A stretch of DNA of 57,885 nt from Ignavibacteria bacterium (GCA_012719345.1 JAAYAN010000150.1:1-57885); one strand, 5' to 3'; shown: positions 128-17,649, numbered from the stretch's first letter. The notes: generated from the letters alone by a model not told the origin. Numbers and translations: made by a program.

Positions 128-152
128 ATCAAACGCTGTATCATCTTGGTGC

Positions 153-187
153 AAAAAAAAGCCCGATTCTGTGAACCGGGCTTTTTT
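153..187 (-). terminator. Bidirectional rho-independent terminator after the receptor gene
   Basis: The stem GCCCG (161-165) pairs with CGGGC (177-181). It is flanked by eight A on the left (a T tract for minus-strand transcripts) and six T on the right. It sits just past the stop codon of the leftward receptor gene, so it most likely ends that transcript, and it could also stop rightward transcription from outside the window. Confidence 0.8.
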
Positions 188-188
188 A

Positions 189-2609
189 TTAAAACATCAT
201 TTCGTCATCTTCCATATCTTCGTTATTATTCTCATTTCTGTTTCTTTCCTGCTTAAAGTTATTGAAGATGTATTTCAGATTCAGCATTACAGAAGGAGCT
301 TCACGCGTAAACTTGCTGTAATTATAATAATCTGCTGTTCTTGTAAAAGATTCCTGGTTCATAGAGCCCAAAAAGTCTCTCACCTGAAGAGTTGCAATAA
401 ATTTATTGTCTAAGAATGATTGACGCAAAGCTGCGTTAATAGTAAAGAATCCTTTGTTTTCGCCTTGTGCCGATACTCTTTTGCTATTGTACATACCGTT
501 TAACTGCAGACTTGTTGAAGCGGTAATTTTGAACATATTGTTGAAACGAAGATTCCAGGTGAAATTCTCCTTTTCAAAATTCTGATCGTAAAGAGTGCCT
601 GTAACTTTGTAATTATACAGGTTTCCAATCAAGTTTACGTTCCAAAAAGCTGCCGGATCAACATTAAACATTAATTCTGTTCCCAGCGAATAATCCTTCC
701 CTACATTTTCAAAAGTGTTTAAAGTTACATCGCTGCTGTAAAGATAACGCACCATTTCAATCTTACTGTTGTTCACTCTGTAATATGCTTCAGTAGAAAT
801 TACAGTCTTTCCTAAAAGAAGCTGATAACCGAGCTCATACGAATCTATGTATTCAGGTTCAAGTTCAGGATTTCCTTCTCTCATATTGTAAGAATCAGTC
901 CATGTGCGGAAAGGTTCAAGCATCATTCCTCTCGGACGGTTTATCCGGCGGGTGTAGCTCGCCATTATCTGGTTGCCGTTATCAAGTTTCCACGAAGTAT
1001 GCAAACCCGGGAAATAATCCCATTTATGGAATTTATAAGATGCAGTAGTATCTATCAGACTTATATCATTATCCGTTAATTCCGCTCTTAATCCAAGTTG
1101 AAATTGTAGTTTTCCAATAGAATTTGAATATGTTGAATATAGAGAATGAACATTCCGTATATATTTGGTGCTGTTGCTGTATCTTTTCTGGAATTCATAA
1201 TCTGAAATTGAGGTGTTGTATTCGTAATAACGGTTTTTTTCTTCCGATGTGCTGAATTGCGATTGATATCCCGCTTCAAGCTTTGAGTTTTCGCTGAACG
1301 GCAATGTATAATCTGCCTTTAATCGAGTATCGTAACTCGGTCCGGCTTCTTCGCTTATTCTTCCATCGTATAATATATTACTTTCATCAAAACGTTCGCT
1401 TATGTTTTTATCATCGCCGTCGCGGTAACTGTAATTAAAATCAGCCGTAAGCTGATGACCGTTTTTATTGAATTTGTGAATGAAAGAAGAAAATGCCGAA
1501 TAAAAATTGCTTTCGCGGTTATCATCCGAAATGTTGGTATAACTTGTTTCAATGGTATTAGATAATTCATTGTATTTTGTTTCCATTCCGCCGCCAAAAC
1601 TGAATGAACCATATCGTCCTCCGAAAGTGATATTGTCATTCTCCGATAAGTCCAAATTCAGCGAAGCTCTCAAACCATACGAAGTCCTTCCGCGGCTTCC
1701 TTCTCCAAGCGAGTTAAGTATTTTAGTATTTCCCAGAAAGTAAGTCTCTCTTTTGTTTGCAATATCCATATCAAAATTTCTTTTATTGTAATCTGCTCCA
1801 ATATTAAATCCGTAACCGTTACCCTTGAAATCTAATAAACCTTCAACACCGTATTTATCATTTATACCGGTATTGGTTTCAAATGAACCGCTGAACCCTA
1901 GATTCGAATTCTTTTTCATAACTACATTTATAATTCCGGATGTCCCTTCTGGATTATATTTTGCGGATGGATTTGTAACAATTTCAATATTTTCAATGGA
2001 GCTTGCCGGAATCTGCTGCAAAGCATCGCTCGCGTCAAGTACGCTCGGTCTTCCGTCAATCAGTACAGTAAAATTACTGCTTCCGCGCAGACTTACATTT
2101 CCGTCAATATCAACCGTTACCGAAGGAACATTTTCCAAAACATCAACAGCGCTGCCCGAAGCTGCAGAAATTAAATCGCTTACTTTTATCACTTTTTTAT
2201 CAATTTCGTAGGAAACAGATGCCTTTTCGCCTTTAACCGTAACTTCATCTGTGCTGTAGGACACAAGATCGAGACTGATTTGCTCGAGCTCTAACGTTTT
2301 TTGCGGTTCAACATTAACATTATCTATTAAATGATTTTTAAACCCGATGAAACTGAGCACAATATAATATTTACCGGGGCGAACTCTTTGTATTTCAAAA
2401 AATCCGTCTTTATTTGTAACAGTTCCGCTAACCTGCGAGCTGTCCTGAGCGTTAAATAACACAACATTCGCAAATTCAAGCGGCTTGTTAGTTGAAGAAT
2501 CAAAAATTTTCCCGTTTATGTTTGATCCGAATTGCCTTACCGGAGGCTGTGCACTTAAAAAAATGAAAAATAAAAGATTAAACGCTGCAATTTTTGTAAC
2601 TAAATTCAT
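189..2609 (-). CDS. TonB-dependent receptor-like outer membrane beta-barrel protein
   Basis: This 806-residue outer-membrane protein starts with a signal peptide of about 20 residues. A carboxypeptidase-regulatory-like (Ig-fold) domain follows at about 30-115 (the GKIFDSSTNKPLEFANVVL stretch). Next come a TonB plug domain at about 130-235 (LENVPSVTVDIDGNVSLRG, then VLIDGRPS) and a long barrel rich in aromatic-polar strands. The layout matches the Bacteroidota family of outer membrane beta-barrel proteins related to SusC/TonB receptors; those have no assigned substrate and none can be read here. The C-terminus is an unusual acidic, Asn-rich tail (NENNNEDMEDDEMMF) rather than a terminal aromatic strand. 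The start is supported by an AAAGGAG site 4-10 bases upstream. The gene is monocistronic, divergent from aspS and ends at a strong terminator. Confidence 0.85.
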   Translation of the reverse strand: MNLVTKIAAFNLLFFIFLSAQPPVRQFGSNINGKIFDSSTNKPLEFANVVLFNAQDSSQVSGTVTNKDGFFEIQRVRPGKYYIVLSFIGFKNHLIDNVNVEPQKTLELEQISLDLVSYSTDEVTVKGEKASVSYEIDKKVIKVSDLISAASGSAVDVLENVPSVTVDIDGNVSLRGSSNFTVLIDGRPSVLDASDALQQIPASSIENIEIVTNPSAKYNPEGTSGIINVVMKKNSNLGFSGSFETNTGINDKYGVEGLLDFKGNGYGFNIGADYNKRNFDMDIANKRETYFLGNTKILNSLGEGSRGRTSYGLRASLNLDLSENDNITFGGRYGSFSFGGGMETKYNELSNTIETSYTNISDDNRESNFYSAFSSFIHKFNKNGHQLTADFNYSYRDGDDKNISERFDESNILYDGRISEEAGPSYDTRLKADYTLPFSENSKLEAGYQSQFSTSEEKNRYYEYNTSISDYEFQKRYSNSTKYIRNVHSLYSTYSNSIGKLQFQLGLRAELTDNDISLIDTTASYKFHKWDYFPGLHTSWKLDNGNQIMASYTRRINRPRGMMLEPFRTWTDSYNMREGNPELEPEYIDSYELGYQLLLGKTVISTEAYYRVNNSKIEMVRYLYSSDVTLNTFENVGKDYSLGTELMFNVDPAAFWNVNLIGNLYNYKVTGTLYDQNFEKENFTWNLRFNNMFKITASTSLQLNGMYNSKRVSAQGENKGFFTINAALRQSFLDNKFIATLQVRDFLGSMNQESFTRTADYYNYSKFTREAPSVMLNLKYIFNNFKQERNRNENNNEDMEDDEMMF

Positions 2610-2728
2610 AAAACTCCTTTTTTTCTATTTATACCTTCAATAGACTCAAAACCCTTGCGCAAGGTTTAAAGTTCTGAAAAAAAAAATTAATATTTCTTGA
2701 TAAAATAATATTTAATTCTTAATTTACT

Positions 2729-2760
2729 ATTGATTAACCGTAAAGAATTTTATATTTTTG
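2729..2760 (+). promoter_or_regulatory. Predicted Bacteroidota-type promoter of aspS
   Basis: ATTG at 2729-2732 is followed, after 20 bases, by TATTTTTG at 2753-2760. This fits the Bacteroidota -33/-7 consensus (TTG, 19-21 bases, TAnnTTTG). It lies 40 bases before the aspS start. The same arrangement precedes the tRNA-Lys gene. This is a pattern match only. Confidence 0.5.
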
Positions 2761-2800
2761 CCTTTCGGTAAATTCCATACACAGAAGGATTATATTTTTA

Positions 2801-4567
2801 ATGTTATTTAAAAGAAGAACGCACACTTGCGGTGATTTAAGAGAAGTAAATATTGGTGAAAGTGTTGTATTGAACGGATGGGTTGATACAAGAAGAGATT
2901 TGGGCGGCGTTATTTTTATTGATTTGCGCGACAGATACGGTATTACACAGGTTCTTTTTGAGCCTACTTTTAATAAAGATTCCCACGAACTGGCTAAACA
3001 GCTTCGCACAGAGTTTGTAATTTCGGTGGAAGGTAAAGTGAGAAAAAGACCTGAAGGAACCGAAAATTCGGAAATATCTACAGGTAATATCGACGTTATG
3101 GTAGAAAAACTGGTAATTTTGAACGAAGCGGTTACTCCTCCTTTCCCTATTAAAAATAATATTGACGTTAACGAAGACCTGCGTCTTAAATTCAGATATC
3201 TCGATCTCCGCAGAAAAGAGATGCAGTCCAATTTAATAATGAGGCATAAAATTGCCCAGACTGCCCGCCGGTATTTCGATTCGCAGTCATTTATTGAAAT
3301 TGAAACTCCGGTTTTAATGAAAAGCACACCCGAAGGCGCGCGCGATTTTCTTGTGCCCAGCCGTCTTCACAAAGGTAAATTTTACGCTCTGCCGCAGTCG
3401 CCACAGCAATATAAGCAATTGCTTATGGTTTCCGGGTTCGACCGCTATTTCCAGATTGTAAAATGTTTCCGCGACGAAGACTTGCGTGCAGACAGGCAGC
3501 CTGAATTTACTCAGATAGACCTTGAAATGTCCTTTATCGACCAGGAGGATGTGTTTGGGATAATGGAAGGATTTATGAAAATCCTTTTAAAAGAAATTAA
3601 AGACTACGATTTACAAACTCCTATTCTCCGTTTATCCTTTAACGATGCAATGGAAAAATACGGAATTGATAAACCCGACTTAAGATTCGGTCTCGAAATG
3701 ATAACAATGACCGATATTTTCTCAAAATCGGAATTCCGTGTGTTTAAAGATACAATTGAAAGCAATGGAATTATTACCGGTCTTCTTGCCGAAAAATGCG
3801 GCGATTACACCCGCAACCAGCTCGACGCCTTAACCGAATTTGCAAAAAAACAGGGTGCAGGCGGTTTGATTTGGATGCGCGTTAAAGAAAATGAACTTGA
3901 AGCTCCGATTGCCAAGTTTTTGTCGGATGAAGAAAAGAAAAATATTGTTGCAAGACTTAATGCTAAACCTGGCGATCTTATTTTTATGATTTCCGGACCA
4001 AGGTTAAAAGCGCTTTCCGCTATGGGGCAGCTCCGCCTTGAAATGGCTGAAAGGCTTAATCTTATTTCGCCCGATGCGCCTCCCGCTTTGCTGTGGGTTA
4101 CCGATTTCCCTTTGTTTGAGTGGGATGAAGAAACAAAACGCTTTTATGCAATGCATCACCCTTTTACTTCGCCTAGAGTTGAAGATATTGAATTAATGGA
4201 AACGAACCCCGGAGCAGTAAAAGCGCGCGCTTACGATCTTGTTCTTAACGGAAATGAAATTGCCGGCGGAAGCATTAGAATACATAACAGCAAACTGCAG
4301 GCATTAATGTTTAAAACATTGGGAATTACCGGGCAGGAAGCTGAAGAGAAATTCGGCTTTTTAATGAATGCATTTAAGTACGGCGCTCCTCCTCACGGCG
4401 GAATGGCTTTCGGTTTGGACAGATTAGTAATGCTTTTGGCGGGAAGAAACTCAATACGCGAAGTTATGGCATTCCCCAAAACTTCCAGCGGAATGTCCCT
4501 TATGGATGATTCGCCGTCGAATGTTGATGCAGACCAGTTGAAAGATTTGCATATAAAATTGCGGTAA
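2801..4567 (+). CDS. aspS: Aspartate--tRNA ligase
   Basis: Charges tRNA-Asp with aspartate in the cytoplasm. The 588-residue length equals that of bacterial-type AspRS (about 590). An N-terminal OB-fold anticodon-binding domain begins at RTHTCGDLR and GWVDTRRDLGG. The class II core follows, with motif 2 (FRDEDLRADRQPEFTQIDLEMSF) and C-terminal motif 3 (GLDRLVMLL). A bacterial GAD insertion lies between them at roughly residues 280-420. The protein ends in the usual MDDSPS plus short tail. The start has an AGAAGGA site upstream, a little distant (about 14 bases). Whether this is the discriminating or non-discriminating form cannot be decided here, because gatCAB is not in the window. Nothing is unusual about the gene. 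Confidence 0.97.
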   Translation: MLFKRRTHTCGDLREVNIGESVVLNGWVDTRRDLGGVIFIDLRDRYGITQVLFEPTFNKDSHELAKQLRTEFVISVEGKVRKRPEGTENSEISTGNIDVMVEKLVILNEAVTPPFPIKNNIDVNEDLRLKFRYLDLRRKEMQSNLIMRHKIAQTARRYFDSQSFIEIETPVLMKSTPEGARDFLVPSRLHKGKFYALPQSPQQYKQLLMVSGFDRYFQIVKCFRDEDLRADRQPEFTQIDLEMSFIDQEDVFGIMEGFMKILLKEIKDYDLQTPILRLSFNDAMEKYGIDKPDLRFGLEMITMTDIFSKSEFRVFKDTIESNGIITGLLAEKCGDYTRNQLDALTEFAKKQGAGGLIWMRVKENELEAPIAKFLSDEEKKNIVARLNAKPGDLIFMISGPRLKALSAMGQLRLEMAERLNLISPDAPPALLWVTDFPLFEWDEETKRFYAMHHPFTSPRVEDIELMETNPGAVKARAYDLVLNGNEIAGGSIRIHNSKLQALMFKTLGITGQEAEEKFGFLMNAFKYGAPPHGGMAFGLDRLVMLLAGRNSIREVMAFPKTSSGMSLMDDSPSNVDADQLKDLHIKLR

Positions 4568-4595
4568 TAATTACATTTTACGTGTAATAATTACA
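4564..4595 (+). promoter_or_regulatory. Tandem near-palindromic repeats upstream of the pilin promoter (candidate enhancer sites)
   Basis: The 12-mer GTAATAATTACA occurs at 4564-4575 and again at 4584-4595, exactly 20 bases apart. Each copy is almost a palindrome. The first copy overlaps the aspS stop codon. The pair lies about 70-100 bases upstream of the sigma-54-type promoter of the pilin gene, the usual place for binding sites of an NtrC/PilR-type activator. Function is inferred from position and symmetry. Confidence 0.4.
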
Positions 4596-4664
4596 AATAT
4601 GAAATATTGTTCATTGAAACTTTGAGAAACGTATGTTAAGCTTTACACTTAAAAGAATTATTTT

Positions 4665-4680
4665 TGGCTCGATAGTTGTA
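4665..4680 (+). promoter_or_regulatory. Predicted sigma-54 promoter of the pilin genes
   Basis: TGGCTCG-ATAG-TTGTA matches the sigma-54 consensus TGGCACG-N4-TTGCA with two mismatches and exact GG to TG spacing. Transcription would start near 4690, about 27 bases before the pilin start codon. Sigma-54 control is the rule for pilA in many bacteria, and two sigma-54 activators are encoded in this window. Confidence 0.55.
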
Positions 4681-4716
4681 ATGTATAAAGCAATTAAATT
4701 GAGCCGGAGTTTATAA

Positions 4717-5103
4717 ATGGGTCAGCAGCAGTTGTTACTAATAGCCTTGGGTGTTATCATAATAGGTGTGGCAGTAATGGTTGGTATTCAAATATTTAAT
4801 GCAAATTCCATTGAGCAAAAAAGAGAATTACTTATTTCTGAATGTATGAATCTGGCAACATTGGCGCAAAAATATTATAATACTCCTGCTGAACTTGGGG
4901 GTGGCGGAAGAAATTTTTCTAAATGGGAGATAAATCACTTGCTTACTAAATCAGCAAACGGAGATTTTGAATTTGCTGTTGAACCTGCTGCAGATCAAGT
5001 AGTAATAAACGCAAAAGGAAACGTTGATGTTGCATCTGGTAAGTTGGTTGAAGTTAATGTTACTGTATATAGTGATTCATTGCAGATAAATATTGTTCAT
5101 TAA
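4717..5103 (+). CDS. Pilin-like protein with minimal leader, copy 1
   Basis: A 128-residue protein beginning MGQQQLLLIALGVIIIGVAV: a Gly at position 2 followed directly by a long hydrophobic helix (about 6-27), as in a type IV pilin cleaved after Gly. The leader would be only two residues. The mature start is Gln rather than Phe/Met, and the usual Glu at +5 is missing. After the helix comes a short periplasmic domain with a GGGG motif (about 63-66) followed by F.K, shared with its neighbour. Residues 70-128 look like beta strands. It lies immediately upstream of a paralogue and a pilus assembly cluster, which is the main reason for the call. It could instead be a membrane-anchored protein unrelated to pilins. 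The second copy is the better candidate for the major subunit, given its placement before a terminator. Confidence 0.65.
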   Translation: MGQQQLLLIALGVIIIGVAVMVGIQIFNANSIEQKRELLISECMNLATLAQKYYNTPAELGGGGRNFSKWEINHLLTKSANGDFEFAVEPAADQVVINAKGNVDVASGKLVEVNVTVYSDSLQINIVH

Positions 5104-5176
5104 AAATTGGCATAAATTTAGATAGTTATCAAATAACACAACAAAATCATTAACAAACAAAAAAGGAGTTATTAAA

Positions 5177-5551
5177 ATGGGTCAACAACAATTATTACTT
5201 ATCGTTTTAGGCGTTATCATTGTGGGTATCGCAATTGTTGTAGGTATTAATCTTTTCAACGCACAGTCAGAAGAATCTGCTAAAGATGCAATGGTTGCAG
5301 CAGCTACAAATATTGGAGCTATGGCTCAGCAATTTTACAAAAAACCTGTCCAAATGGGCGGCGGCGGCGGTGTATTTACCAAGTTTAAAATTCCGACTGG
5401 ACTATCATCAGATGCTAATGGTAAATATGTAGCTACTCCTACGGCAACTAGTGTTACAATTGTAGGTACACCTGATAAAGCTTTTGGTTACTCTTTCAAA
5501 AATATAACAACAACTGTAACGGCTGATACTTTATATTCAACGATTAATTAA
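5177..5551 (+). CDS. Pilin-like protein with minimal leader, copy 2 (likely major subunit)
   Basis: This 124-residue paralogue of the preceding gene is nearly identical over the first 15 residues (MGQQQLLLIVLGVII) and shares the Met/Leu-Ala-Gln-x-(F/Y)-Y motif and the Gly-rich stretch (GGGGG, about 60-64) followed by FTKF. The C-terminal part is Thr/Val rich with no cysteines, so there is no disulfide loop of the kind seen in type IVa pilins. It has a strong AAAGGAG site ending about 7 bases before ATG. A stable terminator follows 40 bases after the stop, as expected for a structural protein made in excess over the machinery. Cleavage by a prepilin peptidase is inferred; no such peptidase gene lies in the window. 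Confidence 0.7.
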   Translation: MGQQQLLLIVLGVIIVGIAIVVGINLFNAQSEESAKDAMVAAATNIGAMAQQFYKKPVQMGGGGGVFTKFKIPTGLSSDANGKYVATPTATSVTIVGTPDKAFGYSFKNITTTVTADTLYSTIN

Positions 5552-5590
5552 AATTAAATTTTCTTTAAAAAAAAGAAATTTATTATATTT

Positions 5591-5621
5591 AAGCCGGCAA
5601 TTAAAAAATGCCGGCTTTTTT
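5591..5621 (+). terminator. Rho-independent terminator between pilin and machinery genes
   Basis: AAGCCGGCA (5591-5599) pairs with TGCCGGCTT (5609-5617), followed by a T run. The hairpin would stop most transcripts after the second pilin gene, letting a fraction read through into the assembly genes. An ATG at 5608 lies inside the hairpin, which argues against its use as the start of the next gene. Confidence 0.85.
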
Positions 5622-5643
5622 AATTTTAACAGGGTGGAAGTTT

Positions 5644-6987
5644 ATGGTAGAATTAAGATTCAGCGCAATTAAACCAAACGGACAATCTATAACAGGCAAC
5701 CTTACAGCTTCTTCAGCCTCGGACGGTAAAAGGAAGATTCAGCAGCTTGCCGAAAAACATCAGCTGAAAATTGACAAAATTGACAAAAAATCAACTTATT
5801 TTTACAAGGTTCGCAAGGGTACAGAACCGCCGAGCAAAGGCGAACAGAAGGCATTTACCGAAGACGAGGTGCGTAAAGCTCTTTCAAAATTGGGTTATGA
5901 TGTTTTATCAGTAAACAAAGCACTTTTTGAATTAAATTTTGCTCCTCCTCAGAATGAAGTAGTCTCTTACGTGAAAATAAGCACGGAGCTTATGGAACAG
6001 AAACTGCCTTACAGTGAAATTATGAATCTGCTTACAAACGACCTCGAAAACAAAACTTTAAGAGAAACATTAAAGCAGATAAATAACGATTTAAAGCAGG
6101 GGGCAGACAGCCAGGCGACATTTCTAAAGTACGAATCTGTATTCGGCAAGTTTACAGCTTATATGCTCGGTCTTGCTTCAAAAAGCGGTAATATGACGGA
6201 GATATACAGAGCTACCTCAAAATTTCTTGAAAGGCAGATGGAGTTCCGTAAGAGTATGCGAAGCGCGCTTATTACTCCTATGATTACATTGTTCGTATTA
6301 TTTTTAGCTGTTCTTTTTTATGTTGCATATATTTTCCCGGAAACTGCAAGAATGTTTAAAAAATTCGATATTGAACTGCCTCCTATGACGGCTTTCACGC
6401 TTGCTTTCTCGGATTTTTTGGTTGCTAACTGGATTGTAATTGCCTTTCTCTGCATTGTACCCCCTATCATTTTTTGGCGATGGGCTGTTTCAAAAAGCGG
6501 AAAACTAATTGTTGACCGATATATGCTGAAACTGCCGATTATAGGTTCTCTTGTGCATAAAACAACAATAGAAGTATTTTGCCGAGTATTTTATACATTA
6601 TATACCGGATCTGCAGAAAGTATCGAACCTATAAGAATAGCTGCAGAGGCTTCGGGCAATGCATATTTCGAAAAACAGATAAAAGAGGTTGCCATACCGC
6701 TTATGATTAAGAAAGGTATAGGAGTTACAGATGCTTTTACTGCAAGCGGGGTTTTTACCGAAACAGCATTATCAAGGTTCCATTCGGGGGAAGAATCGGG
6801 CACAATTAAAAATACCGCTAAACAATTGGCGGATTATTACGAAAGTGAAACTGTGTTTCGTTTAAAAAATATAATTGAATTAATTCAGGTTGGTATTGCT
6901 ATGATAATTATGATAGTTATGATTGCTCTTACGCTTGTATCTGCAGAAACTGCGGTTATCAGTCCAAAAAATCCGATGCTTAAATAA
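5644..6987 (+). CDS. Type IV pilus/type II secretion inner membrane platform protein (PilC/GspF family)
   Basis: A 447-residue polytopic inner-membrane protein, the platform on which the cytoplasmic ATPases act. Two T2SSF domains can be followed: a first around 95-215 and a second around 290-405. Membrane segments are at about 212-236, 265-290 and 405-432. The second domain carries the family-typical pattern in which L/F.R.F..L...G is followed by GE.SG (here FYTLYTGSAES and HSGEESG). I chose ATG 5644 because the upstream ATG (5608) is inside a terminator hairpin; a GGAAG site precedes 5644. The first ~90 residues form a soluble, Lys-rich domain typical of PilC. The gene is 17 bases upstream of the extension ATPase and is clearly co-transcribed with it. 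Confidence 0.88.
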   Translation: MVELRFSAIKPNGQSITGNLTASSASDGKRKIQQLAEKHQLKIDKIDKKSTYFYKVRKGTEPPSKGEQKAFTEDEVRKALSKLGYDVLSVNKALFELNFAPPQNEVVSYVKISTELMEQKLPYSEIMNLLTNDLENKTLRETLKQINNDLKQGADSQATFLKYESVFGKFTAYMLGLASKSGNMTEIYRATSKFLERQMEFRKSMRSALITPMITLFVLFLAVLFYVAYIFPETARMFKKFDIELPPMTAFTLAFSDFLVANWIVIAFLCIVPPIIFWRWAVSKSGKLIVDRYMLKLPIIGSLVHKTTIEVFCRVFYTLYTGSAESIEPIRIAAEASGNAYFEKQIKEVAIPLMIKKGIGVTDAFTASGVFTETALSRFHSGEESGTIKNTAKQLADYYESETVFRLKNIIELIQVGIAMIIMIVMIALTLVSAETAVISPKNPMLK

Positions 6988-7004
6988 AGGAAGTATTAAG
7001 AATT

Positions 7005-8801
7005 ATGATTGAATCACAGCAGGAAATGATTGATAAAATCGGTTATCTGCTCCTTAAAAAGGGAATAATCGACGCTAAAATTCTAGATAAGGCTCTTCAG
7101 ATTAAAAGGGAAGACCAGAACGGATTAAAGCGCAACCTTGCACAGATACTTGTTCAGGAGCTTAAGTTCGATCACGATACAATCTTCCGCGAAGTGGCGC
7201 TGCTTTATGCATTCAAGGAAATAAATTTTAAAATTGAAGATATACCCGAAGATAAAAGAGAAGTAATACGCAGTATGATAAACGGACAGGGCGAAGATGT
7301 AAAAAATCTTTTGCTTGAAAGCAAGATACTGCCGTTAAGATACGATGATAAATTTAAAGATAAAATAGTTTTTGCCGCTGTTGATCCCACAAGCAAGGAT
7401 ATCATAAAAGTTGCTCACGCTTTTAACACACGCAAGTATGAAATAAATTATTTAAAAAAAGCAGATTACGATAAAGCTATTGAAATTTTAGTTCCTCCGG
7501 AAAATAAGTTTCTTACGGATTTACAGAATTTCAAGGAAGAAATCAGTATGGAAATACTTGATGAATCTTCCAGCATAGATGAAGAGCAGCTTAATGCGGA
7601 AATTAATAAAAGCGCGCTTATAAACCTTATTGAAGGCGCATTGGTGGACGGAGTGCGCAGAGGAGTGAGCGATATCCATTTTATTCCTAAAAACGGCAAC
7701 CGTACTGAAATACATTTCCGGCAGGACGGCAAGCTGCAGTTATGGAAAACTCAGACAAACACTCTTCCCGAAGCAGTGATGGCTGTTGTAAAAGACAGAT
7801 CGAAGGGAATGGACCGTTTTGAAAGAGAAATGGCTCAGGACGGTTATATTCAGAGGAATATCGACGGCAGGGTAATCCGTTTCCGTGTGTCTGTTCTGCC
7901 CGTTGTAGGTACAGAGGTTAAGCATAAATTTGAAAGCATTGTAATAAGAATTCTTGACGACAGCAAAATCATAACAGACTTGGATAAACTTGGTCTTATC
8001 GGTTACGGAAGAAAAGTATTCGAAAAAGCTATCCGCCAGCCTCAGGGAATGGTTATTATGACAGGTCCTACAGGAAGCGGTAAAAGCACTACGCTTGTTG
8101 CCGCATTGTATCAGGTTATAAATCCTACAAAAAACGTTTTAACTGTAGAAGACCCTGTGGAATATGTTATTGAAGGCGCCCGCCAGCTTAAAATCGGTCA
8201 TAAAATGAATTTCGAGCAGGCAATCCGTTCAATATTGCGTCACGACCCCGATATAGTTCTTGTAGGTGAGATGCGCGATAAGGAAACAGCAGAAACTGCT
8301 ATTAAACTTGCAAATACCGGTCACTTAACATTTTCCACGCTTCACACAAACGATGCCCCCAGCGCGGTTGCGCGTTTATTTAAAATGGGTGTGGAGCCTT
8401 TTCTTATTGCTTACGCTATAAATCTTATTGTTGCGCAAAGACTATTAAGGCGTTTATGCCCTATTTGCAAAAAGAGAGTTGAAGAATACGACGGGGAATA
8501 TTTTAAATCCCTTAATTTAGATGTAGAAGAATGGAAACAGTACGAAATATTTGAACCTGTTGGGTGCTCGAAATGCCATAATACCGGCTACAAAGGGCGT
8601 CTTGCCATACACGAATCATTATATTTTACAAAAGATATACGCGAAATAATAGTGCGTTCCGGTGAAGAAGTCGATGAAGAAAAAATAAGGATTCAGGCCA
8701 AAAAAGACGGCACTTTGAACCTGAGAGAGAGCGGTTTGGAAAAAGTGCGTCTCGGTATGACTTCCATAGCTGAGGTAGTTGCCGGAACAACAGATGATTA
8801 A
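7005..8801 (+). CDS. Pilus extension / secretion ATPase (PilB/GspE family)
   Basis: A 598-residue hexameric ATPase of the secretion superfamily. An N-terminal MshEN/GspE-N-type domain (about 1-165) is followed by the N2 domain (200-320) and the motor domain. The motor domain shows Walker A GPTGSGKST, Asp box TVEDPVEYV, Walker B VLVGEMRD and a His box TGHLTFSTLHTNDAPSA. Two CxxC pairs (CPIC and CSKC, about 40 residues apart) form the zinc finger typical of PilB/GspE extension motors. All key residues are present, so this is expected to be an active assembly motor. It has a good AAAGGAAG site. It is followed by 108 bases without a gene, which could hold a separate promoter for the PilT-like gene (TATCTTTG at 8874-8881). 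Confidence 0.93.
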   Translation: MIESQQEMIDKIGYLLLKKGIIDAKILDKALQIKREDQNGLKRNLAQILVQELKFDHDTIFREVALLYAFKEINFKIEDIPEDKREVIRSMINGQGEDVKNLLLESKILPLRYDDKFKDKIVFAAVDPTSKDIIKVAHAFNTRKYEINYLKKADYDKAIEILVPPENKFLTDLQNFKEEISMEILDESSSIDEEQLNAEINKSALINLIEGALVDGVRRGVSDIHFIPKNGNRTEIHFRQDGKLQLWKTQTNTLPEAVMAVVKDRSKGMDRFEREMAQDGYIQRNIDGRVIRFRVSVLPVVGTEVKHKFESIVIRILDDSKIITDLDKLGLIGYGRKVFEKAIRQPQGMVIMTGPTGSGKSTTLVAALYQVINPTKNVLTVEDPVEYVIEGARQLKIGHKMNFEQAIRSILRHDPDIVLVGEMRDKETAETAIKLANTGHLTFSTLHTNDAPSAVARLFKMGVEPFLIAYAINLIVAQRLLRRLCPICKKRVEEYDGEYFKSLNLDVEEWKQYEIFEPVGCSKCHNTGYKGRLAIHESLYFTKDIREIIVRSGEEVDEEKIRIQAKKDGTLNLRESGLEKVRLGMTSIAEVVAGTTDD

Positions 8802-8909
8802 CTTTTGAAAATTTTATTTGACAAAGTATAAAAGATTTAGTTATTTTTCAGTTATGGTGATAAATTTAAGTAATATCTTTGTCTCATTTTCTAACTTGGT
8901 ACTAAACTT

Positions 8910-10136
8910 ATGATTAATGAAGCCAAGCTTATTCTTTCGACATTTGCAAAACGAATTCCTCCCACAGTTTTTGGTCCGGAAAGGGTAAATGTTATAGTAA
9001 GCAATTTTTCGGAATTAAAAGCAGAGCATAAACTGCTTCTGCACGATTTAATGAATTACATTCTCACTCTGATGGTCGAACGGCAGGCATCGGACGTTGA
9101 AATTGGCGGTCACGGCTGCGAAAATTACGTGTGGTTCCGTATTTTCGGCAAAAAGGAACGCGTTAAGGATCTTCCTGATTTTACCGCTGATGAAGCTTCG
9201 GTTCTTATTGTAAGTTTGTTGAACAGCAATCAGACCAAACTTATCCTCGAAAAAAGAAATATCGATTTCAGCTACACCTTCCGCTACGAAGCCGAAAATA
9301 AAAATATACGTTTCCGTGCCGATGCATATTTCGATCTCGATTCTCTCGCGCTGAATATGCGTGCAATCAACACCGAAATACGTCCTGTTGAATCCCTCGG
9401 GTTTCATGCAAACGCTATCCGCACAATGAATCATAATTACATTAAATTCGGACTTTCGCTTATTACAGGAATTACCGGTTCAGGTAAATCATCCACTTTG
9501 GATTCAATTGTCGATTTTCATAATAAATTCGATCCTGCTCACGTTATTATAATAGCTGCTCCTATTGAATATGTGCATAATTCAAGAGCCTGCATTATCA
9601 GGCACAGGGAAGTGGGCAGGGACGTTCTTTCGTTTAAGGAAGGCGTTATTCAGGCATTGCGCCAGGACCCTGATATTATAATTATCGGTGAAATGAGAGA
9701 TCCCGATACAATTATGGCTGCTCTGGAAGTTACTGATACGGGTCATAAAGTGTTTTCAACTCTCCACACATCTTCTGCGGTTGAATCAATCGACCGTATT
9801 ATTGCTGAAGTTGATACCAACGAGCAGGATCGTGTGCGTCTCAGGTTAGCGGATGTGTTGATTTCGGTTGTGTCGCAGAAACTTGTGCCGAGTCTTGATG
9901 GAAAACGGGTACTTGCAAAAGAAGTGTTGCTTGTAACTCCGAGCGTTCAGGCAGCCATTAAAAACAATAATACAAGCGAAATTTATATGATGATTAATCA
10001 GGGCGGACCCCAGGGTATGGTAACAATGGAGCAGGATCTGCTCAGATTGTTCCAGCAGCGCTCAATCTCAAGAGAAAATGCAATAGCATATTCCAATAAT
10101 AAAAACAGAATGTTACAATTACTTAAAGCGGTATAA
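8910..10136 (+). CDS. PilT-like twitching/retraction ATPase
   Basis: A 408-residue secretion ATPase. It resembles PilT in lacking the zinc finger and in its short PAS-like N2 domain (about 50-150). Walker A is GITGSGKSS (about 190), Walker B is IIIIGEMRD and the His box is TGHKVFSTLHTSSAVE. The Asp box reads IIAAPIEYVH where PilT normally has EDPIEFVH, so the first two acidic residues are replaced by Ala-Ala; the following Glu is kept. An extra ~50-residue N-terminal extension precedes the N2 domain. A retraction-type motor suggests a dynamic pilus rather than a pure secretion system. It begins a tight run of four genes (spacings of 5, 1 and about 12 bases). The motor assignment is solid; retraction activity is inference. 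Confidence 0.85.
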   Translation: MINEAKLILSTFAKRIPPTVFGPERVNVIVSNFSELKAEHKLLLHDLMNYILTLMVERQASDVEIGGHGCENYVWFRIFGKKERVKDLPDFTADEASVLIVSLLNSNQTKLILEKRNIDFSYTFRYEAENKNIRFRADAYFDLDSLALNMRAINTEIRPVESLGFHANAIRTMNHNYIKFGLSLITGITGSGKSSTLDSIVDFHNKFDPAHVIIIAAPIEYVHNSRACIIRHREVGRDVLSFKEGVIQALRQDPDIIIIGEMRDPDTIMAALEVTDTGHKVFSTLHTSSAVESIDRIIAEVDTNEQDRVRLRLADVLISVVSQKLVPSLDGKRVLAKEVLLVTPSVQAAIKNNNTSEIYMMINQGGPQGMVTMEQDLLRLFQQRSISRENAIAYSNNKNRMLQLLKAV

Positions 10137-10141
10137 AAAAT

Positions 10142-11674
10142 ATGAAGCCATTAATTTGTGTTTACTGTGAAGGAAACGATACAAAAGTATCTGTGGTGTC
10201 TTCCGAAGGATCAGAAATAAGAGTGCTTAAAACAATTTCACTCAGCGGTAAAGTAACAGGCAAAGGAGATTTCGATTCGGGAGCGTCAGTTGACTTGGAC
10301 GGGCTTTCCGGCGATATTTCGTTTGAAAAAGGTGATTCCGGAGCTTTAACGTCAACAGATTCGTCGGATGTAAGTCTGCTTGCCGCCGGTCTTAACGAAT
10401 TTAAACTGCCTATGTGCGAATTTGCATTGGTAGTTTCGGAACCGGTTTTAAATTATCATATTTTCGAAGGAGTAACTTCGGATGAAAAAAAGAAAACTAT
10501 TGAAATTATATGCAATGACTTAAAAAGTTCAAAAGGCATAATTGTTGATCCTGAATCAATTGATTATACAGAGCTGATTGATAAGTCGCTGCTTACGGGT
10601 TTTATCGAGCACGATATTCAGGCTTTTAATCTTATACAGTCTCTTGCAAGTTATCATGGCAAAAGATTTTATAAAATTAACACTATTAAAAGCGCTGATA
10701 TTGCTCTTGCTCATTATGTTGCAAAAAATAACGAGTTTTTCCCCGAAGATTTCAGTCTTGTGCTTTATACGGCAAAAGAATACAGCAAACTTATCTTTCT
10801 TGAAGGAAGTAAATTAAAACATTTAGGACCTACTCTGGATATAGGTACTCAGAATATTCATACTTACGATGTTTATTTTTCAAAAATCCTCCTTGAAATG
10901 GAAAACGGCGGAGTTCCGCGCCTCGATAATATTGTAATCTGCGGCGAAGATAATTCCGAAAATCTTATACTTTCCTTTTACGGCGCTTTTCCCGAAGCAA
11001 ATGTTATTGAACTAGGGTTCGATAAACTGAAACTGTCAGCCTTGAATGATGACGACAAATCGACAGTATCTGCTTTTACAATACCTGTTGCCGCAGCGGT
11101 TGAATATTTCGACGAGCAGGCTAACACGGTAAAAGGATTTAACATTCTTCCTAAGTACATTAAAGAAAATCAGAAACCTTTCCAGCTGGGATGGCATACA
11201 ATTGTTGTTATGGCACTGCTGCCGCTGGTTGTTTTGTTTCTTACAATGAAATATCTGAATAACAGCCAGGAAATTTCCGATCTCGAAAGAGAATTGAATA
11301 TTAAAAAGCAGGAAAAAATAAGGAATCAGGAACTTCTTTCGCAGATTGATGAAGTAAATCAGAAAATTGAAAACTTCGGAAAAACCCAGTCTATATTGGA
11401 TTCAGCCTCTGCCGGAGCCGAAGTATGGAGCAAAACTGCCGAAAGAATCGCATCATTTATGGAAAGAAGAAGAAACTTCTGGATTACAAAACTTGAAACA
11501 TCAGGCAAAGATATAAACATTGACGGATATTCGCAATCGCGAAGCGTTTTGACTGAATTTGCTGACTATAACAGCTCTTCGCTGCTTAAAAGCATTTTAT
11601 ACGAGCCGTTGCGCGAAGAAAGCGCTTATGCTTTCAGCCTAAATTTTAAACTAACTAACGATTCGGTGGACTGA
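10142..11674 (+). CDS. PilM-PilN fusion-like (GspL-like) pilus assembly protein
   Basis: A 510-residue bitopic inner-membrane protein. Residues 1-345 are cytoplasmic with an actin-like fold pattern (alternating beta strands; DIALAHYV, LGPTLDIGTQNIHTYDVYFSKILLEM, LDNIVICGED). One membrane segment lies at about 352-372 (WHTIVVMALLPLVVLFLTM). It is followed by a coiled coil (375-425) and a periplasmic ferredoxin-like PilN domain containing RNFWITKLETSGKDINIDGYSQS. In type IV pili the PilM and PilN halves are separate proteins, while in type II secretion they are joined as GspL; this gene has the joined form. Sequence similarity is weak and the call rests on topology and position between a PilT-like and a PilO-like gene. 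Confidence 0.65.
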   Translation: MKPLICVYCEGNDTKVSVVSSEGSEIRVLKTISLSGKVTGKGDFDSGASVDLDGLSGDISFEKGDSGALTSTDSSDVSLLAAGLNEFKLPMCEFALVVSEPVLNYHIFEGVTSDEKKKTIEIICNDLKSSKGIIVDPESIDYTELIDKSLLTGFIEHDIQAFNLIQSLASYHGKRFYKINTIKSADIALAHYVAKNNEFFPEDFSLVLYTAKEYSKLIFLEGSKLKHLGPTLDIGTQNIHTYDVYFSKILLEMENGGVPRLDNIVICGEDNSENLILSFYGAFPEANVIELGFDKLKLSALNDDDKSTVSAFTIPVAAAVEYFDEQANTVKGFNILPKYIKENQKPFQLGWHTIVVMALLPLVVLFLTMKYLNNSQEISDLERELNIKKQEKIRNQELLSQIDEVNQKIENFGKTQSILDSASAGAEVWSKTAERIASFMERRRNFWITKLETSGKDINIDGYSQSRSVLTEFADYNSSSLLKSILYEPLREESAYAFSLNFKLTNDSVD

Positions 11675-11675
11675 T

Positions 11676-12572
11676 ATGAACCGTAAACTAAAAAATACTT
11701 TGATATTCCTTGGATTGCTGATTTTAGCATTGGTAATCGGTCTTATTCCTATATACTTGCAGGGTCAGAAGATTGACGACAAGGAAAAAGAGCTTGAACA
11801 ATACAGACGCCAGGAATATAATACGGACGAACTAACTTTGCAGCTTGAACAGCTTAAAGTTGAATTTTCCAAGCTGGATTCAATCCTTTCATCAAGGAAA
11901 TTCAACATCCCTGTAAATTTATCGCAATCGCGTTTTTATGATTTTATTACTAAAGTGAGCTTTAATTTTTCACCTCAGTCTTATGTTAACCAAGAGTTTG
12001 TTTCTGTTGAAAAAAAGGAGCATTTCAGCATATATAACTACAGACTTACAGGCGTTGCTTATTTTAATGATGTTTACAAGCTGCTGTATGCAATTGAACA
12101 GAGCAAAGAGCTTAAAAAAGTGTCATCTGTTTCGCTTGCAAATTACGTTAAAGTTGATGATGAAGGAATACCTTATTATCTGGTAAATTTCTCGCTTGAT
12201 ATACAGGTGCTCAATTCCGATAACGACAGATTCGCATCATCAAATTTTAAGGAAAACAAGCTTGTCCCGAACCAGATTTATGATGTATTCTATCCGCAGA
12301 TACGGAACGAGATTCCGCCGAATGTTGATAATCTTCTCGATGTTCAAAGCGCCCAGCTTCTTGCGTTAATTCCTGACGGAGCATTTTTAGCGGATGCAAA
12401 GGGAAATACATATCTTCTTTGGGACGGTGATGAAGTTTACCTCGGACACTTAACAGATATCGATTACGACCGAAATCAGGTGAATTTTATACTGAATAAA
12501 GGCGGTATTATCGAAAGAGTTTCATTGAAACTTGAAAACAAACAATTGGAAAAAACAAACAAAAAAAAATAA
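11676..12572 (+). CDS. PilO/GspM-like inner membrane alignment protein
   Basis: A 298-residue protein with a short cytoplasmic N-terminus and one membrane helix (about 8-28). A coiled coil follows (35-75, KEKELEQYRRQ to LEQLKVEFSKLDSIL), then a periplasmic ferredoxin-like domain (80-180, with NYRLTGVAYFNDVYKLLYAIEQS as the typical PilO strand-helix). This matches the PilO/GspM alignment subcomplex. An unusual C-terminal extension of about 100 residues (190-298) contains a small beta-rich domain (LADAKGNTYLLWDGDEVYLGHL) that resembles the bipartite PilP/GspC-like beta modules placed next to the secretin. That function is inferred, since no separate PilP gene is seen. The start lies one base after the stop of the upstream gene. 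Confidence 0.65.
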   Translation: MNRKLKNTLIFLGLLILALVIGLIPIYLQGQKIDDKEKELEQYRRQEYNTDELTLQLEQLKVEFSKLDSILSSRKFNIPVNLSQSRFYDFITKVSFNFSPQSYVNQEFVSVEKKEHFSIYNYRLTGVAYFNDVYKLLYAIEQSKELKKVSSVSLANYVKVDDEGIPYYLVNFSLDIQVLNSDNDRFASSNFKENKLVPNQIYDVFYPQIRNEIPPNVDNLLDVQSAQLLALIPDGAFLADAKGNTYLLWDGDEVYLGHLTDIDYDRNQVNFILNKGGIIERVSLKLENKQLEKTNKKK

Positions 12573-12584
12573 AGAGTGAATAAT

Positions 12585-13808
12585 ATGAAACGATTAATTG
12601 TACTATTATTACTGGCGGTTTTCATTTCACCTGTATCCGCTCAGAGATTGTTGGAAAAAACATTAAGCGGTTATACAAATCCCGAGGAAATTGTAAGTCT
12701 GTCGCAGAATCTTCCTTTTGATAATGCTATAGAGGTATTAAGCCAGATAAGCGAAAAATTAAAAGGTAAGAAAATTGTTTCAACGGCAAATTTTACAAGC
12801 CCGATAGGTATTGAAATTACAAAAATGCCATATGAAAAAGCATTGCTTCTTATTGTTCAGTATAATAACCTTGAATATGAAGAAACGCCTAATGTAATTG
12901 TTGTTAGAAGCAAAAACGATCCTACAAAGGGACTGGAAGATGATGTTTATGCGGATATTAATACAAAGGAAGTTAAAATATCGGCTCTTTTCTTCGAAGC
13001 AAATATAACAGATATGCAGGAACGCGGAATCAATTGGAAGTTTCTCCTGCAGGGTGAAGGTTTTTCTGTAGGGAATGAACTTAAAACATTTTTAACAGGA
13101 CAAGTTGAAGGGGGAACTAAAACCCAAAGTGAAACACCTCCAGATAACCAAACTTCAGGGAATAGCGATTTTGAAATGGGAGATTACGACGGCACTTTAA
13201 GCGGCGCGTTTAAGTTTTTTGAAACAAACAATCTTGGCGAAGTTGTTGCAAGACCCAATATAAGCGTAAGGGACAAACAGAAAGGACGTATCCAGATTGG
13301 CTCCGACTGGTCAATCAAACAGCGTGATTTTTCGGGCAACGTTACAGACGTATTTATTTCCACAGGTACAATTATAGAAGTTGTTCCTTACATTTATAAT
13401 GAAGACGGCACGGATTATGTCTTACTTAAATTAATGGTTGAAAGAAGCTCGGGTTTGCCGGATGCTATCAGCACTGAAATTAAAAAGACTACTGCAACAA
13501 CAGATGTTTTAATGCTTAACGGCGAGGAAATTGTTATAGGAGGTTTGTTTGTAAACGAAACAGCAACATCGCGCAGAGGTATTCCTATTTTGAAAGACCT
13601 TCCATGGTGGGTTTTCGGTATCAAGTATTTAACAGGATACAACTCGGAAACTGTTATAAAGAAAGAAGTTATAATTTTAGTTAAGACAGAAATAGTTCCT
13701 TCGTTGAAAGAAAGAGTTAATCAGAAACAGGAAGATTTGATCAATAAGGAAATACTTGAAAACAGGCAATATTTAAGAGAACACGGAAGTAAAAAAACAA
13801 ACGAATAG
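12585..13808 (+). CDS. Short secretin (PilQ/GspD family outer membrane channel)
   Basis: A 407-residue exported protein: signal peptide 1-20 (cleavage after VSAQ), one N-domain of secretin/TonB short type at about 25-110, and then the C-terminal secretin domain (120-390). The signature GLFVNETATSRRGIPILKDLPWWVFGIKYL is diagnostic of secretins, as is the VVARPNISVRDKQKGRIQIGS stretch. Typical PilQ/GspD are 600-750 residues with several N-domains, so this is a minimal form. A Gln/Ser/Thr/Asn-rich loop (about 178-195) interrupts the secretin domain near the gate region. An upstream GTG at 12576 is possible, but the AAAGAG site favours ATG 12585. It would provide the outer-membrane pore for the fibre. 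Confidence 0.85.
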   Translation: MKRLIVLLLLAVFISPVSAQRLLEKTLSGYTNPEEIVSLSQNLPFDNAIEVLSQISEKLKGKKIVSTANFTSPIGIEITKMPYEKALLLIVQYNNLEYEETPNVIVVRSKNDPTKGLEDDVYADINTKEVKISALFFEANITDMQERGINWKFLLQGEGFSVGNELKTFLTGQVEGGTKTQSETPPDNQTSGNSDFEMGDYDGTLSGAFKFFETNNLGEVVARPNISVRDKQKGRIQIGSDWSIKQRDFSGNVTDVFISTGTIIEVVPYIYNEDGTDYVLLKLMVERSSGLPDAISTEIKKTTATTDVLMLNGEEIVIGGLFVNETATSRRGIPILKDLPWWVFGIKYLTGYNSETVIKKEVIILVKTEIVPSLKERVNQKQEDLINKEILENRQYLREHGSKKTNE

Positions 13809-13817
13809 GAGATACGG

Positions 13818-14195
13818 ATGCATTCTGTTTTAATTGTTGACGACGATATAAATCTTTGCACAGTGCTTTCTGAAGAGTTGAATGAAGAAGGATTCAACAC
13901 AACTTACGTTACCAGCGCGGCAGAAGCAGTTGAGTATATGCAGAAAGGCAATAATGTGGATTTGATATTGCTCGATTTGAAGATGCCGCAGCACGACGGT
14001 TTCTTTGTGTTGAAAAACCTGAAGCAGATTGGCATTGATACAAAAGTAATTGTGCTTACCGCTTATGCAGATGTGCGAAGCGCAATAGATTCCGCCAGAC
14101 TCGGGGCAATTGATTTTATTAACAAGCCTTATGATCTGGATGAACTTATAATTACTATGCGAAAGGTTCTCCAAAAAGAAGAAAATGAAGATTAA
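13818..14195 (+). CDS. Single-domain response regulator (CheY-like)
   Basis: A 125-residue stand-alone receiver. It shows the acidic pocket VDDD at 7-10, the phospho-acceptor Asp in LLLDLKMP (about 53), the Thr in VLTAY (about 81) and the Lys in INKPYD (about 104), so it should be phosphorylatable. It has no output domain. It begins 9 bases after the secretin gene with a GGAGAT site, so it is probably expressed with the pilus genes. Its stop codon is overlapped by the natural ATG of the following hybrid kinase (14185), suggesting that kinase and receiver act together, perhaps in controlling pilus motors or as a phosphorelay intermediate. Confidence 0.88.
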   Translation: MHSVLIVDDDINLCTVLSEELNEEGFNTTYVTSAAEAVEYMQKGNNVDLILLDLKMPQHDGFFVLKNLKQIGIDTKVIVLTAYADVRSAIDSARLGAIDFINKPYDLDELIITMRKVLQKEENED

Positions 14196-17100
14196 TGCAA
14201 AGCTGTGACTAATTACATTTTCCATTGTTTGTGTAATATCAATAGTAACAGCTTTTATTTATTTTTCTCTTACGGTTAACTTACTTGAACAGCAGCAAAT
14301 AAAGGGGCTTAAAACCCAGAAAACAAATCTTTCCTATTCTCTGCGGCAAATCATTTCCGAAATGGATTTGAATATCTACGAAACAGTTTCAGAAAAAAAG
14401 GACATTCTGAAACTTAATATCGACAGCTCGGCAATAGATTTTCTTTTTACATTCCAGTCCGATTCCGATAAAAAGTTTAATGTTTTTTTAGCAAAAGATA
14501 AGTATAAAAATATTACGCCTCAGTCTGATTTTAATAAATTCAAATCGAATAACCCGAATATTCTGATAAACTATTATGATTTGGGCGAAGGCGGAATGGT
14601 TTATTATGGAAAGCTTATAAACACAGAACTTTTAAAGAAATTAACGAATGATGATAAAATAGGAATCATATTATTAAGTGCGAAAAAAGTTATTGCTGCT
14701 TCTAATGATACAAATAATAATGCCAATCTCTCCTACAATCTAAAATTGCATCTTGCGGATAAGAATGAAATTACAAAGATAGAAACCAGTAATGAAGATA
14801 ATTATTTTATTACATATGAACCGGACAATATATTTTTTACAGGGAATGATGTAAAGTTTGTTATTCAATTGCAGACAGATGAGATTAACCAGATAACAGG
14901 AGTGATGCAGTCAACAATTTTGATAATTGTTATTACAGGCAGTCTTTTATCTTTAATTGCAATATTGCTTTTTACTTACAGGATGCGAAAACAGATTCAA
15001 TTAATGAACAAGGTTGTAAGCAAGGTAAAAAGCGGTGATTTTTCGGAAACAGTTCAGGTAATTACAAAAGATGAGATTGGAACATTTGCATTAACATTGA
15101 ATGCAATGCTTAAGGAAATTCATCAAAGAGAAGATGAGGAAAAAAAATACACCGATTTTCTAAGAATCATAAACACTCATACCGAAATTGATGAACTTGC
15201 AGAGGTAGCAATAAAAAATATAAGCAGTTCGTTAAACTGTAATTACGGATTGCTCTATTTAATTGAAAATAAAGAAATTAAAAGAATATTTTCGTACGGT
15301 ATTGATGCCGCTAAAATAAAAGACGCCTCGAATATTAACTATTTGCATAAAGCAATTTCGGGAAAAGAAATTATCGACGTAGATTTAGCAGAAAAAGCCG
15401 TAATATTAAACTCAGGGCTCTTCTCTGTTGAAATTAAGAACATCATCGTTTTTCCGGTTATTTTCGGCGGAAAAGTTATAGCTGCAATAGAGATAGCCTC
15501 TTCCGGAAAAATTAAAAGAATCCAGTATCTCAATAATATTCTTGACCAATTGGCAATTGGTTTGGCAAACGCAATTGCTTATAAAAAACTGGAGACTTAT
15601 GTTCATGATTTAAAGAATCTGAATGAGGAATATCAAAAACAGAATGAACAAATCCGTTACAAGAACCAGGAATTGATAGAATTGCATACTACTCTTCAGA
15701 AAAAGGCTGCCGAGCTCGAAACTGAGAGAGTAAAAGCAGTTGAACTGACCAGATTAAAATCCGAATTTTTAGCGAGCATGAGCCACGAACTTCGCACACC
15801 GTTAAATTCAATTCTCGGTTTGTCGGAATTATTGCTGCAGCGTAAAACTCCCGTTAAGGATAGTCAGAATGATCTCAATCTTATTTTAAAAAACGGAAAA
15901 TTACTTTTGGCGCTGATAAGCAACATTCTCGAATTTTCGAAAATTGAAGCAGGAAAAACTGAAATTAAAAATGAAAACGTGTTTGTCTATTCGCTGCTGA
16001 ATGAAATATTTGATTTGATTAGTCCTTTAGCAAAACAGAAAAAATTAAATTTCACTTTGGAAAACAATATATCAAAAGAATTTTGTTTCAATACGGATAA
16101 AGAAAAAATAATACAGATCCTTTTGAATATTTTAAGCAATGCAATAAAGTTTACAGAATCGGGTTATATTAAACTGACAGCAGCTTTGAATCAGAAAAAT
16201 CAGATTCAATTTGAAATTATTGATACTGGAATCGGGATATCGGAAGAAGACCAGAAGAAAATATTTGATGAGTTCCGGCAGTTGGAAGGCGGGTTAACGA
16301 GGAAATACGGTGGTACCGGACTTGGGCTTTCGATTGCAAAAAAATACATCGATCTTTTAGGCGGCAAAATAGCTGTGGAAAGTGAAAAGGGAGTCGGTTC
16401 AATATTTACGATAACTTTACCTGTTGATATTGAAAATTACAGTGAAAAAATCAAAGAAAAGCTTGATACTCCGAAAGAGAAAAAAGCAGTTATACTATAT
16501 TCGGATAACCAAATGATTTGTGATGTTATAAGTGAATATTTCAAATTAAATGATATTACTGTTAAAAGTGTTGATAATGAAAATAAACTGCAAGAAAGCA
16601 TTATAAACGACAAACCTATTGGGGTAATTATAAATTCTGTTTTATCGGGAAAGCAGACCTGGACAGTATTGAAAGAGATAATTAAACAGAACAAAGATTC
16701 CGATCTGCCTATTATTGCAGCATTGTTTGATGCAGAAAGCAATTTAGGTTATGCATTAAATATATATAACTATTTAACCGAGACTGAATTTGTAAATAAT
16801 ACTTCAACAATAATTAAGAAAATTGAAAAACATCATAATATTAAAATCAACAAAATTGCTTTTTTAACCGATAAAAATGAAAGTGAAAAAATTGATATAA
16901 CGGATAATTATGATATTATAAATATACAGCCCGCTCAGTCTATGCCGGCTGACATAATTACTAATCAAATTGATTTGATTGTGTTGAAATTGGCTTTAGA
17001 AAATTATCAGCTGGCACCGGAAATAATCGGGGATATTAAAGAAAATAAAAGCACCCGGAACATTCCGGTAATTGCTTTAATTGATGAAGACTTGAATGAA

Positions 17101-17649
17101 AATGACGGAAATGCTTTAAATACAAGTTTGCATATTGTTTTACAAAACGAAAAACATCACCCTTTGGATGTGCTGAACTTCATACGAAAACGTCTGCAAA
17201 TTTCGTATAATCCCAGAACATTAAATAGTCTTTTTAAGGAAGAAAATTATATCATTACGGATGAGGATTTCACTAAGAAAAAAATATTGATTGTGGATGA
17301 TGATAACGACACGCTTTACACTATCGGCGAAATAGTAAAAGATATGGGATACGAAGTTGTATTTGCAAGAAACGGACTTGAATGCATATCCCAGCAGCGT
17401 AAAGAACAGCCGGACTTGATTCTGCTTGATATTATGATGCCGCAAATGGATGGATTTGAAACAATTAAAAGAATCCGTAAAATTTATGATGTTGATAAAT
17501 TACCCGTTGTTGCGTTAACAGCTTATGTAATGCTGGAGAATAAAGAAATTATTCATAAAAACGGATTTAATGATTTAATTACTAAACCGATAAAAAGACA
17601 GGAAATTGAATTTAAATTAAAAAAAATATTTTCTGCAGGAATTAAATGA
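14185..17649 (+). pseudogene. Hybrid sensor histidine kinase interrupted by an in-frame TGA near its N-terminus
   Basis: The natural start appears to be ATG 14185, overlapping the upstream receiver stop. The frame reads MKINAKL, then TGA at 14206-14208, then LITFSIVCVISIVTAFIYF, clearly the first membrane helix. The first downstream ATG (14362) would give a 1095-residue protein lacking that helix. From 14362 the domains are a periplasmic sensor (1-180), second membrane helix (182-206), HAMP (206-258), GAF (265-410) and a coiled coil. HisKA follows with the phospho-His at 475 (SHELRTP), then HATPase (570-690, with GTGLGLSIAKKY), one or two degenerate receivers (about 705-960) and an intact C-terminal receiver (974-1090, Asp 1023). 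A CGA-to-TGA change would explain the break. It could be a true nonsense mutation, a sequence error, or readthrough. The rest of the frame is intact, so the event is recent or not damaging. Confidence 0.7.

Follow-up and report, generated by a model that had tools for sequence, protein, structure and literature searches.

Type IV filaments are regarded as sharing four universal components, the prepilin peptidase among them (PMC10790768), and the Com pilus of Streptococcus sanguinis, a T4dP described as made solely of this universal core, has pilins that are cut by the peptidase ComC (PMC10790768). Other relatives of the system analysed here are the 'T2SS' of Bacteroidetes (Cytophaga), a divergent, T4aP-related system of the wider Bacteroidetes whose major pilin is very divergent (PMC6668835), and the pilT, pilQ, pilB and pilC genes reported in Melioribacter roseus (PMC3534657), which represents a closely related lineage.

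We analysed a window (the whole stretch of DNA studied, 57,885 nucleotides) from an Ignavibacteria bacterium, which is contig C165 of an assembly of 4.02 Mb whose completeness is rated at 100%. Like the type IVa pilus (T4aP) of Myxococcus, Pseudomonas and Neisseria, the system in this window has PilB, PilC, PilT, PilN, PilO, a PilP domain, a PilQ-like secretin and the pilin fold, together with minor pilins resembling the I-J-K set. Unlike the T4aP, its pilins lack both a leader and Glu5, most of its carriers have no detectable prepilin peptidase, PilP is joined to PilO in one protein, and the secretin is short; this secretin, PilB and PilC score below the curated T4aP cut-offs. With the Com pilus it shares a predicted tip complex in which the last of the minor pilins has no Glu5, whereas Com has neither a secretin nor PilT. 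The Cytophaga system, compared here by description only, is likewise divergent and T4aP-related but is described as a secretion system, while the present one has PilT. Relative to the Melioribacter report, our analysis locates the pilins, which went unrecognised because they are leaderless, and argues that pilD is unneeded. Leaderless pilins together with carriers in which no peptidase was detected are the feature that sets the system apart, and this was missed in an earlier, sequence-only reading of the window.

Gene calling and profile searches place eight genes in the same direction on one strand, spanning positions 4717-13808 of the window, with aspS as the upstream neighbour of the locus. 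The features of the locus and of the region directly downstream are as follows.

4717..5103, + strand: major-pilin-like protein 1, 128 aa; leaderless start MGQQQLLLI, with an in-frame TAA abutting the ATG and GGAG upstream
5177..5551, + strand: major-pilin-like protein 2, 124 aa; leaderless start MGQQQLLLI, with AGGAG upstream; predicted structure a helix at residues 2-55 plus four strands, the fold of a type IV pilin
5590..5624, + strand: terminator-like hairpin in the gap between pilin 2 and pilC; AAGCCGGCA, a loop of 9, the complement, then a T run
5644..6987, + strand: PilC/GspF-type inner-membrane platform protein, about 447 aa (PF00482); start moved from 5608
7005..8801, + strand: PilB-type extension ATPase, 598 aa (PF00437; ATPase tree)
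8910..10136, + strand: PilT-type retraction ATPase, 408 aa; above the NCBIfam PilT/PilU cut-off
10142..11674, + strand: putative PilM-PilN fusion, 510 aa; PilN part by profile, PilM part from position and length
11676..12572, + strand: PilO-PilP fusion, 298 aa; PilO at residues 79-182, PilP/GspC-HR domain at residues 211-291
12576..13808, + strand: short PilQ-like secretin, 407-410 aa (PF00263); N-terminal signal peptide judged by eye
13818..14195, + strand: single-domain response regulator, starting 9 nt past the secretin; in the same place in 28 of 86 loci
14362-17649, + strand: hybrid sensor kinase, 1095 aa, with HAMP, GAF, HisKA, HATPase and receiver domains, directly past the response regulator

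The co-directional run of two short pilin-like genes, a platform protein, an extension ATPase, PilT, a PilO-like protein and a short secretin is thus as first read. The PilC start is probably at 5644, since 5608 sits within the terminator-like hairpin and 5644 yields the 447 aa of the orthologues. An exact-stem hairpin precedes pilC in 20 of 79 loci, versus other operon genes in 1-2 of about 90; the hairpin at 5590, which is absent from the list of a stricter, standard terminator scan, may hold expression of the machine genes under the pilin level. The single-domain response regulator is part of the gene set in this lineage, and the 1095-aa kinase next to it might be a regulator of the pilus.

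The gene order pilin-(pilin)-PilC-PilB-PilT-PilMN-PilO-secretin, with individual genes split or absent in some loci, is kept across Ignavibacteria, Balneolia/Rhodothermia, KSB1, Neomarinimicrobiota, Calditrichia, LCP-89 and one Latescibacterota MAG. Across approximately 100 loci, many of them truncated by contig ends, we counted PilT/PilB in 100, PilMN in 93, PilO in 89, the secretin in 86, PilC in 79 and a major pilin in 60. The nearest named relatives of the window's PilT come from Melioribacter-, Ignavibacterium- and Stygiobacter-like genomes. A lipoprotein family with carboxypeptidase-regulatory-like, Big_1 and Invasin_D3 domains lies near about 28 loci (for example L083:2762-4141, L085:2030-3499 and L147:1467-2912 on the minus strand), and is a candidate outer-membrane partner of the pilus.

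The major pilins of these loci depart from the canonical prepilin in a uniform manner. All 101 distinct sequences from FCB-group loci begin M/V/L-G-x-x-Q, with Gly2 and Gln5 invariant and Glu5 absent, and none has a charged residue in its first 27 positions; not one has a class III signal peptide or Glu5, the residue regarded as neutralising the N-terminus of the adjacent subunit. No basic residue was found ahead of the helix in the major pilins examined. None of the 101 genes has an in-frame ATG upstream of its annotated start, while an in-frame stop is the directly preceding codon in 8 and lies no more than 6 codons away in 80, and the GGAG and AGGAG sites ahead of the two window pilins are normally spaced. 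The upstream stops, the Shine-Dalgarno sites and the conservation in 101 of 101 sequences therefore fix the pilin starts and rule out wrong or chance start codons. Although no Pfam or NCBIfam family matches the leaderless pilins above its cut-off, the AlphaFold model of the window pilin (pLDDT 89.7) has a 54-residue helix and four strands, and rows 1-21 of its VIA-align matches are all type IV pilins (Z 10.4 to 5.5), several aligned over their full length; Foldseek E-values of 0.09-0.2 are not significant by themselves. The structural alignments mostly set residue 4 of the pilin at canonical position 1, an offset of 3. Gln5 is thus not strictly equivalent to Glu5, as the register is ambiguous, and we dropped the equation of Met1 with Phe1 and of Gln5 with Glu5. 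Copy number of the major pilin varies widely, with four tandem copies in one locus (L089:15316-17463, minus strand) and nine matches in one genome (G018).

Minor pilins are likewise present. Three families, A (PilV/GspI-like), B (PilW/GspJ-like) and C (PilX/GspK-like), were named by eye from size, order and motifs (LEYDxxKxGY in B, for instance), and no Pfam or NCBIfam model matches them above its cut-off. Each has 33-37 members, nearly all leaderless. In several families the three genes are placed between PilB and PilT, whereas the window's genome has A, B, C1 and C2 side by side in one operon on another contig (C139); the absence of minor pilins noted earlier therefore holds within the window but not for the genome, where they are present and unlinked. 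Gln or Glu occupies position 5 in 27 of 33 A sequences and Asp position 6 in 22 of 33 B sequences, while in C neither position 5 nor position 6 commonly has Gln, Glu or Asp. Glycine is at position 2 in the major pilins, often at 4 in A, and at no fixed position in B. The capping K subunit of the conserved I-J-K tip pilins is described as lacking Glu5 (PMC10790768); by these sequence features the A-B-C operon resembles the I-J-K set, and C the capping K subunit.

The distribution of the prepilin peptidase agrees with this picture. Profile searches of 197 genomes of the class found the PilT-like gene in 109, the major pilin in 105 and minor pilins A and B in 107 each, whereas the peptidase domain PF01478 was found in only 9, all of them among the 109 PilT carriers. 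The remaining 100 of 109 carriers had no match to PF01478, a count obtained with one profile on assemblies that include many fragmented MAGs, which leaves room for an A24 peptidase that has diverged or for an enzyme of an unrelated kind. Seven of these carriers are single-contig assemblies (G032, G113, G119, G153, G165, G180 and G183). Canonical N_methyl pilins occur in 15 of the 197 genomes, including all 9 with PF01478. In the genomes whose coordinates allowed a comparison, the peptidase has such a pilin no more than a few kb away, and usually a GspE-type ATPase as well (both are that near in G013, G019, G118 and G134). A search of 20 named genomes at E<=10 gave a match over the cut-off in 8 (from KSB1, Calditrichia, Neomarinimicrobiota, LCP-89, Balneola EhC07 and a Chlorobiaceae MAG), leaving 12 without one; even at this threshold no plausible peptidase was seen in Fodinibius halophilus, F. 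sediminis, Gracilimonas amylolytica, Rhodohalobacter halophilus or the complete genome of the machine carrier Roseithermus sacchariphilus. In the control set, Lactococcus lactis matched N_methyl and not PF01478, for which loss of sensitivity and true absence are both possible.

The window's own genome has a single peptidase gene, located outside the window in a second, T2SS-like locus, so the earlier statement that no prepilin peptidase is present applies to the window only.

Contig C94 (genome G000, locus L012), 1-9813: second type IV filament locus, with canonical N-methyl pilins, the only prepilin peptidase, GspE, a two-domain GspF, a 690-aa secretin and PilM/N-, PilO- and PilP-like ORFs

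For a locus without a peptidase, Denise et al. regard the enzyme as possibly borrowed from another system (PMC6668835). This idea is of no help for genomes with no peptidase at all. A protease concealed in the operon was also sought, and no recognisable substitute was found among the conserved neighbours of the approximately 100 loci.

These observations bear on the question of whether the pilins might still be processed, with the initial MG (M-x-T-G in minor pilin A) acting as a vestigial leader that is cut after the glycine by the C94 enzyme or by a divergent peptidase missed by the profile. Glycine at -1 is a hallmark of prepilin cleavage sites, Gly2 is invariant in the 101 major pilins, and the C94 peptidase could in principle cut MG^QQQ. 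On the other hand, PF01478 has no match in most carriers, single-contig genomes included, the major pilins have no basic residue ahead of the helix, and no conserved neighbour looks like a protease. Nor does glycine hold one shared position over the four pilin families, and a vestigial glycine -1 common to all pilins was rejected as a general rule on this ground. We therefore consider processing unlikely. Carriers with and without a peptidase have the same pilins, which makes a filament that never needs leader removal the simplest account.

The machine proteins of the system resemble those of the described T4aP. PilT passes the NCBIfam TIGR01420 cut-off (321.3 versus 319.1 bits), and solved PilT structures are its nearest profile matches in the PDB (E 1e-87). 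PilB scores best against type_IV_pilB, at 425 bits versus a cut-off of 675.65, and the secretin reaches 91.5 bits versus 284.35 for NCBIfam PilQ, with PilQ as its best PDB match (E 4e-26, versus 4e-18 for GspD). As PilB, PilC and the secretin all lie far under the curated NCBIfam equivalog cut-offs, calling the whole system a T4aP is a statement of resemblance. A Tad/Flp pilus is not supported, as the TadA-family model (52 bits for PilB) and RcpA (E 4e-6 for the secretin) score well behind these T4aP matches. In a quick ATPase tree with 20 references, two of which are very long branches, the PilB and the PilT of the system are each set apart as a single group by a branch with full support, on long stems that measure 0.98 and 2.11; PilT nests on its long stem within the PilT/PilU clade, while PilB forms its own long-stemmed clade with no resolved place among PilB, GspE and MshE. 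The proposal of a separate branch is supported by these clades with their stems and by the sub-threshold scores. A second PilB paralogue of 618 aa in one locus (L087:14594-16450, minus strand) has a Walker A motif that is degenerate by eye (GPSGAGRID versus GxxGxGKST) and is possibly an inactive ATPase.

All three members of the PilN, PilO and PilP alignment subcomplex were recognised, the first two by profile and PilP by predicted structure. The C-terminal part of the PilMN protein matches PilN (E 2e-10), while the PilM assignment of the approximately 340 aa ahead of it comes from position and length. The PilO-like protein matches PilO by profile (E 1e-7), and in its predicted structure (pLDDT 91.3) residues 79-182 align with PilO (VIA-align Z 10.6) and residues 211-291 with PilP (Z 9.3 and 9.0), as well as with the HR domain of GspC (Z 9.0; 57 residues at an rmsd of 1.2). 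One protein thus combines PilO with PilP, and what had been read as an extra beta domain beside a missing PilP is PilP itself. With PilP accounted for and minor pilins elsewhere in the genome, the locus can no longer be called minimal. The suggested T4P/T2SS hybrid is not supported either, as PilT, PilN, PilO and the secretin all find their closest matches among T4aP proteins. Judged by its sequence relationships, the system is a divergent type IVa-like pilus machine of Ignavibacteria, Balneolia/Rhodothermia and other FCB-group lineages.

A related possibility is that the machine builds a short pseudopilus for secretion and not a surface pilus, which would make it T2SS-like in the way suggested for Cytophaga. 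Fusions of the PilM/PilN type and HR-type domains are also known from T2SS GspL and GspC. Against this, the conserved gene set holds a PilT above its curated cut-off, and the T2SS is not known to have a PilT; the secretin is nearer PilQ than GspD, PilN and PilO are closest to T4aP proteins, the HR-type domain is carried on PilO, and the same genome has a separate T2SS-like locus. Denise et al. 2019 place the Bacteroidetes 'T2SS' among the T4aP and suggest a separate, T4aP-derived secretion system (PMC6668835), which lends the pseudopilus some plausibility, but on balance we regard it as improbable. That the system is an ordinary T4aP, with the puzzle of the sequence-only reading due to scattered genes and nothing else, has very little left to recommend it: PilP was found within a protein, and minor pilins and a peptidase in the genome, but both ATPases sit on long private stems, and the pilin starts without leader or Glu5 and the carriers with no detectable peptidase clash with the T4aP definition and already contradict it.

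Taken together, these findings make it probable that the locus encodes the machine for a retractile, type IVa-like pilus in a single operon, and that this pilus has no need of a prepilin peptidase. The pilins, beginning two to five residues ahead of the membrane helix, would have no leader to remove, and each would enter the inner membrane via its hydrophobic helix with the globular head in the periplasm. Removal of the methionine by methionine aminopeptidase is likely ahead of Gly2, and the initiator methionine would be at most what the pilin loses. PilB and PilC would then assemble the unprocessed pilin directly, the filament would be exported via the PilQ-like secretin with the aid of the PilM/N and PilO/P complex, and PilT would pull it back. 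The leaderless minor pilins A, B and C, from their separate operon in this genome, may form the tip complex. That such pili are made at all is something we infer from sequences and structure models.

If pilins are made essentially mature, then of the four 'universal' components of type IV filaments one would be dispensable. We found no earlier report of leaderless or peptidase-free type IV pili in the literature searched, most of it outside subscription journals. Somewhat more likely than its opposite, in our judgement, is the broader proposal suggested by these sequences, that a branch of type IV pili spread over the FCB group does without the prepilin peptidase by means of ready-to-assemble pilins with Gln for Glu near the N-terminus, and that cleavage and N-methylation are unneeded for a retractile filament. 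If true, this would explain why such pili have been annotated as incomplete (PMC3534657), since their pilins escape the Pfam and NCBIfam families. A lineage assembling pilins without the peptidase or Glu5 would mean that the mechanics of the filament require neither, and would provide a natural system for asking what leader cleavage is for.
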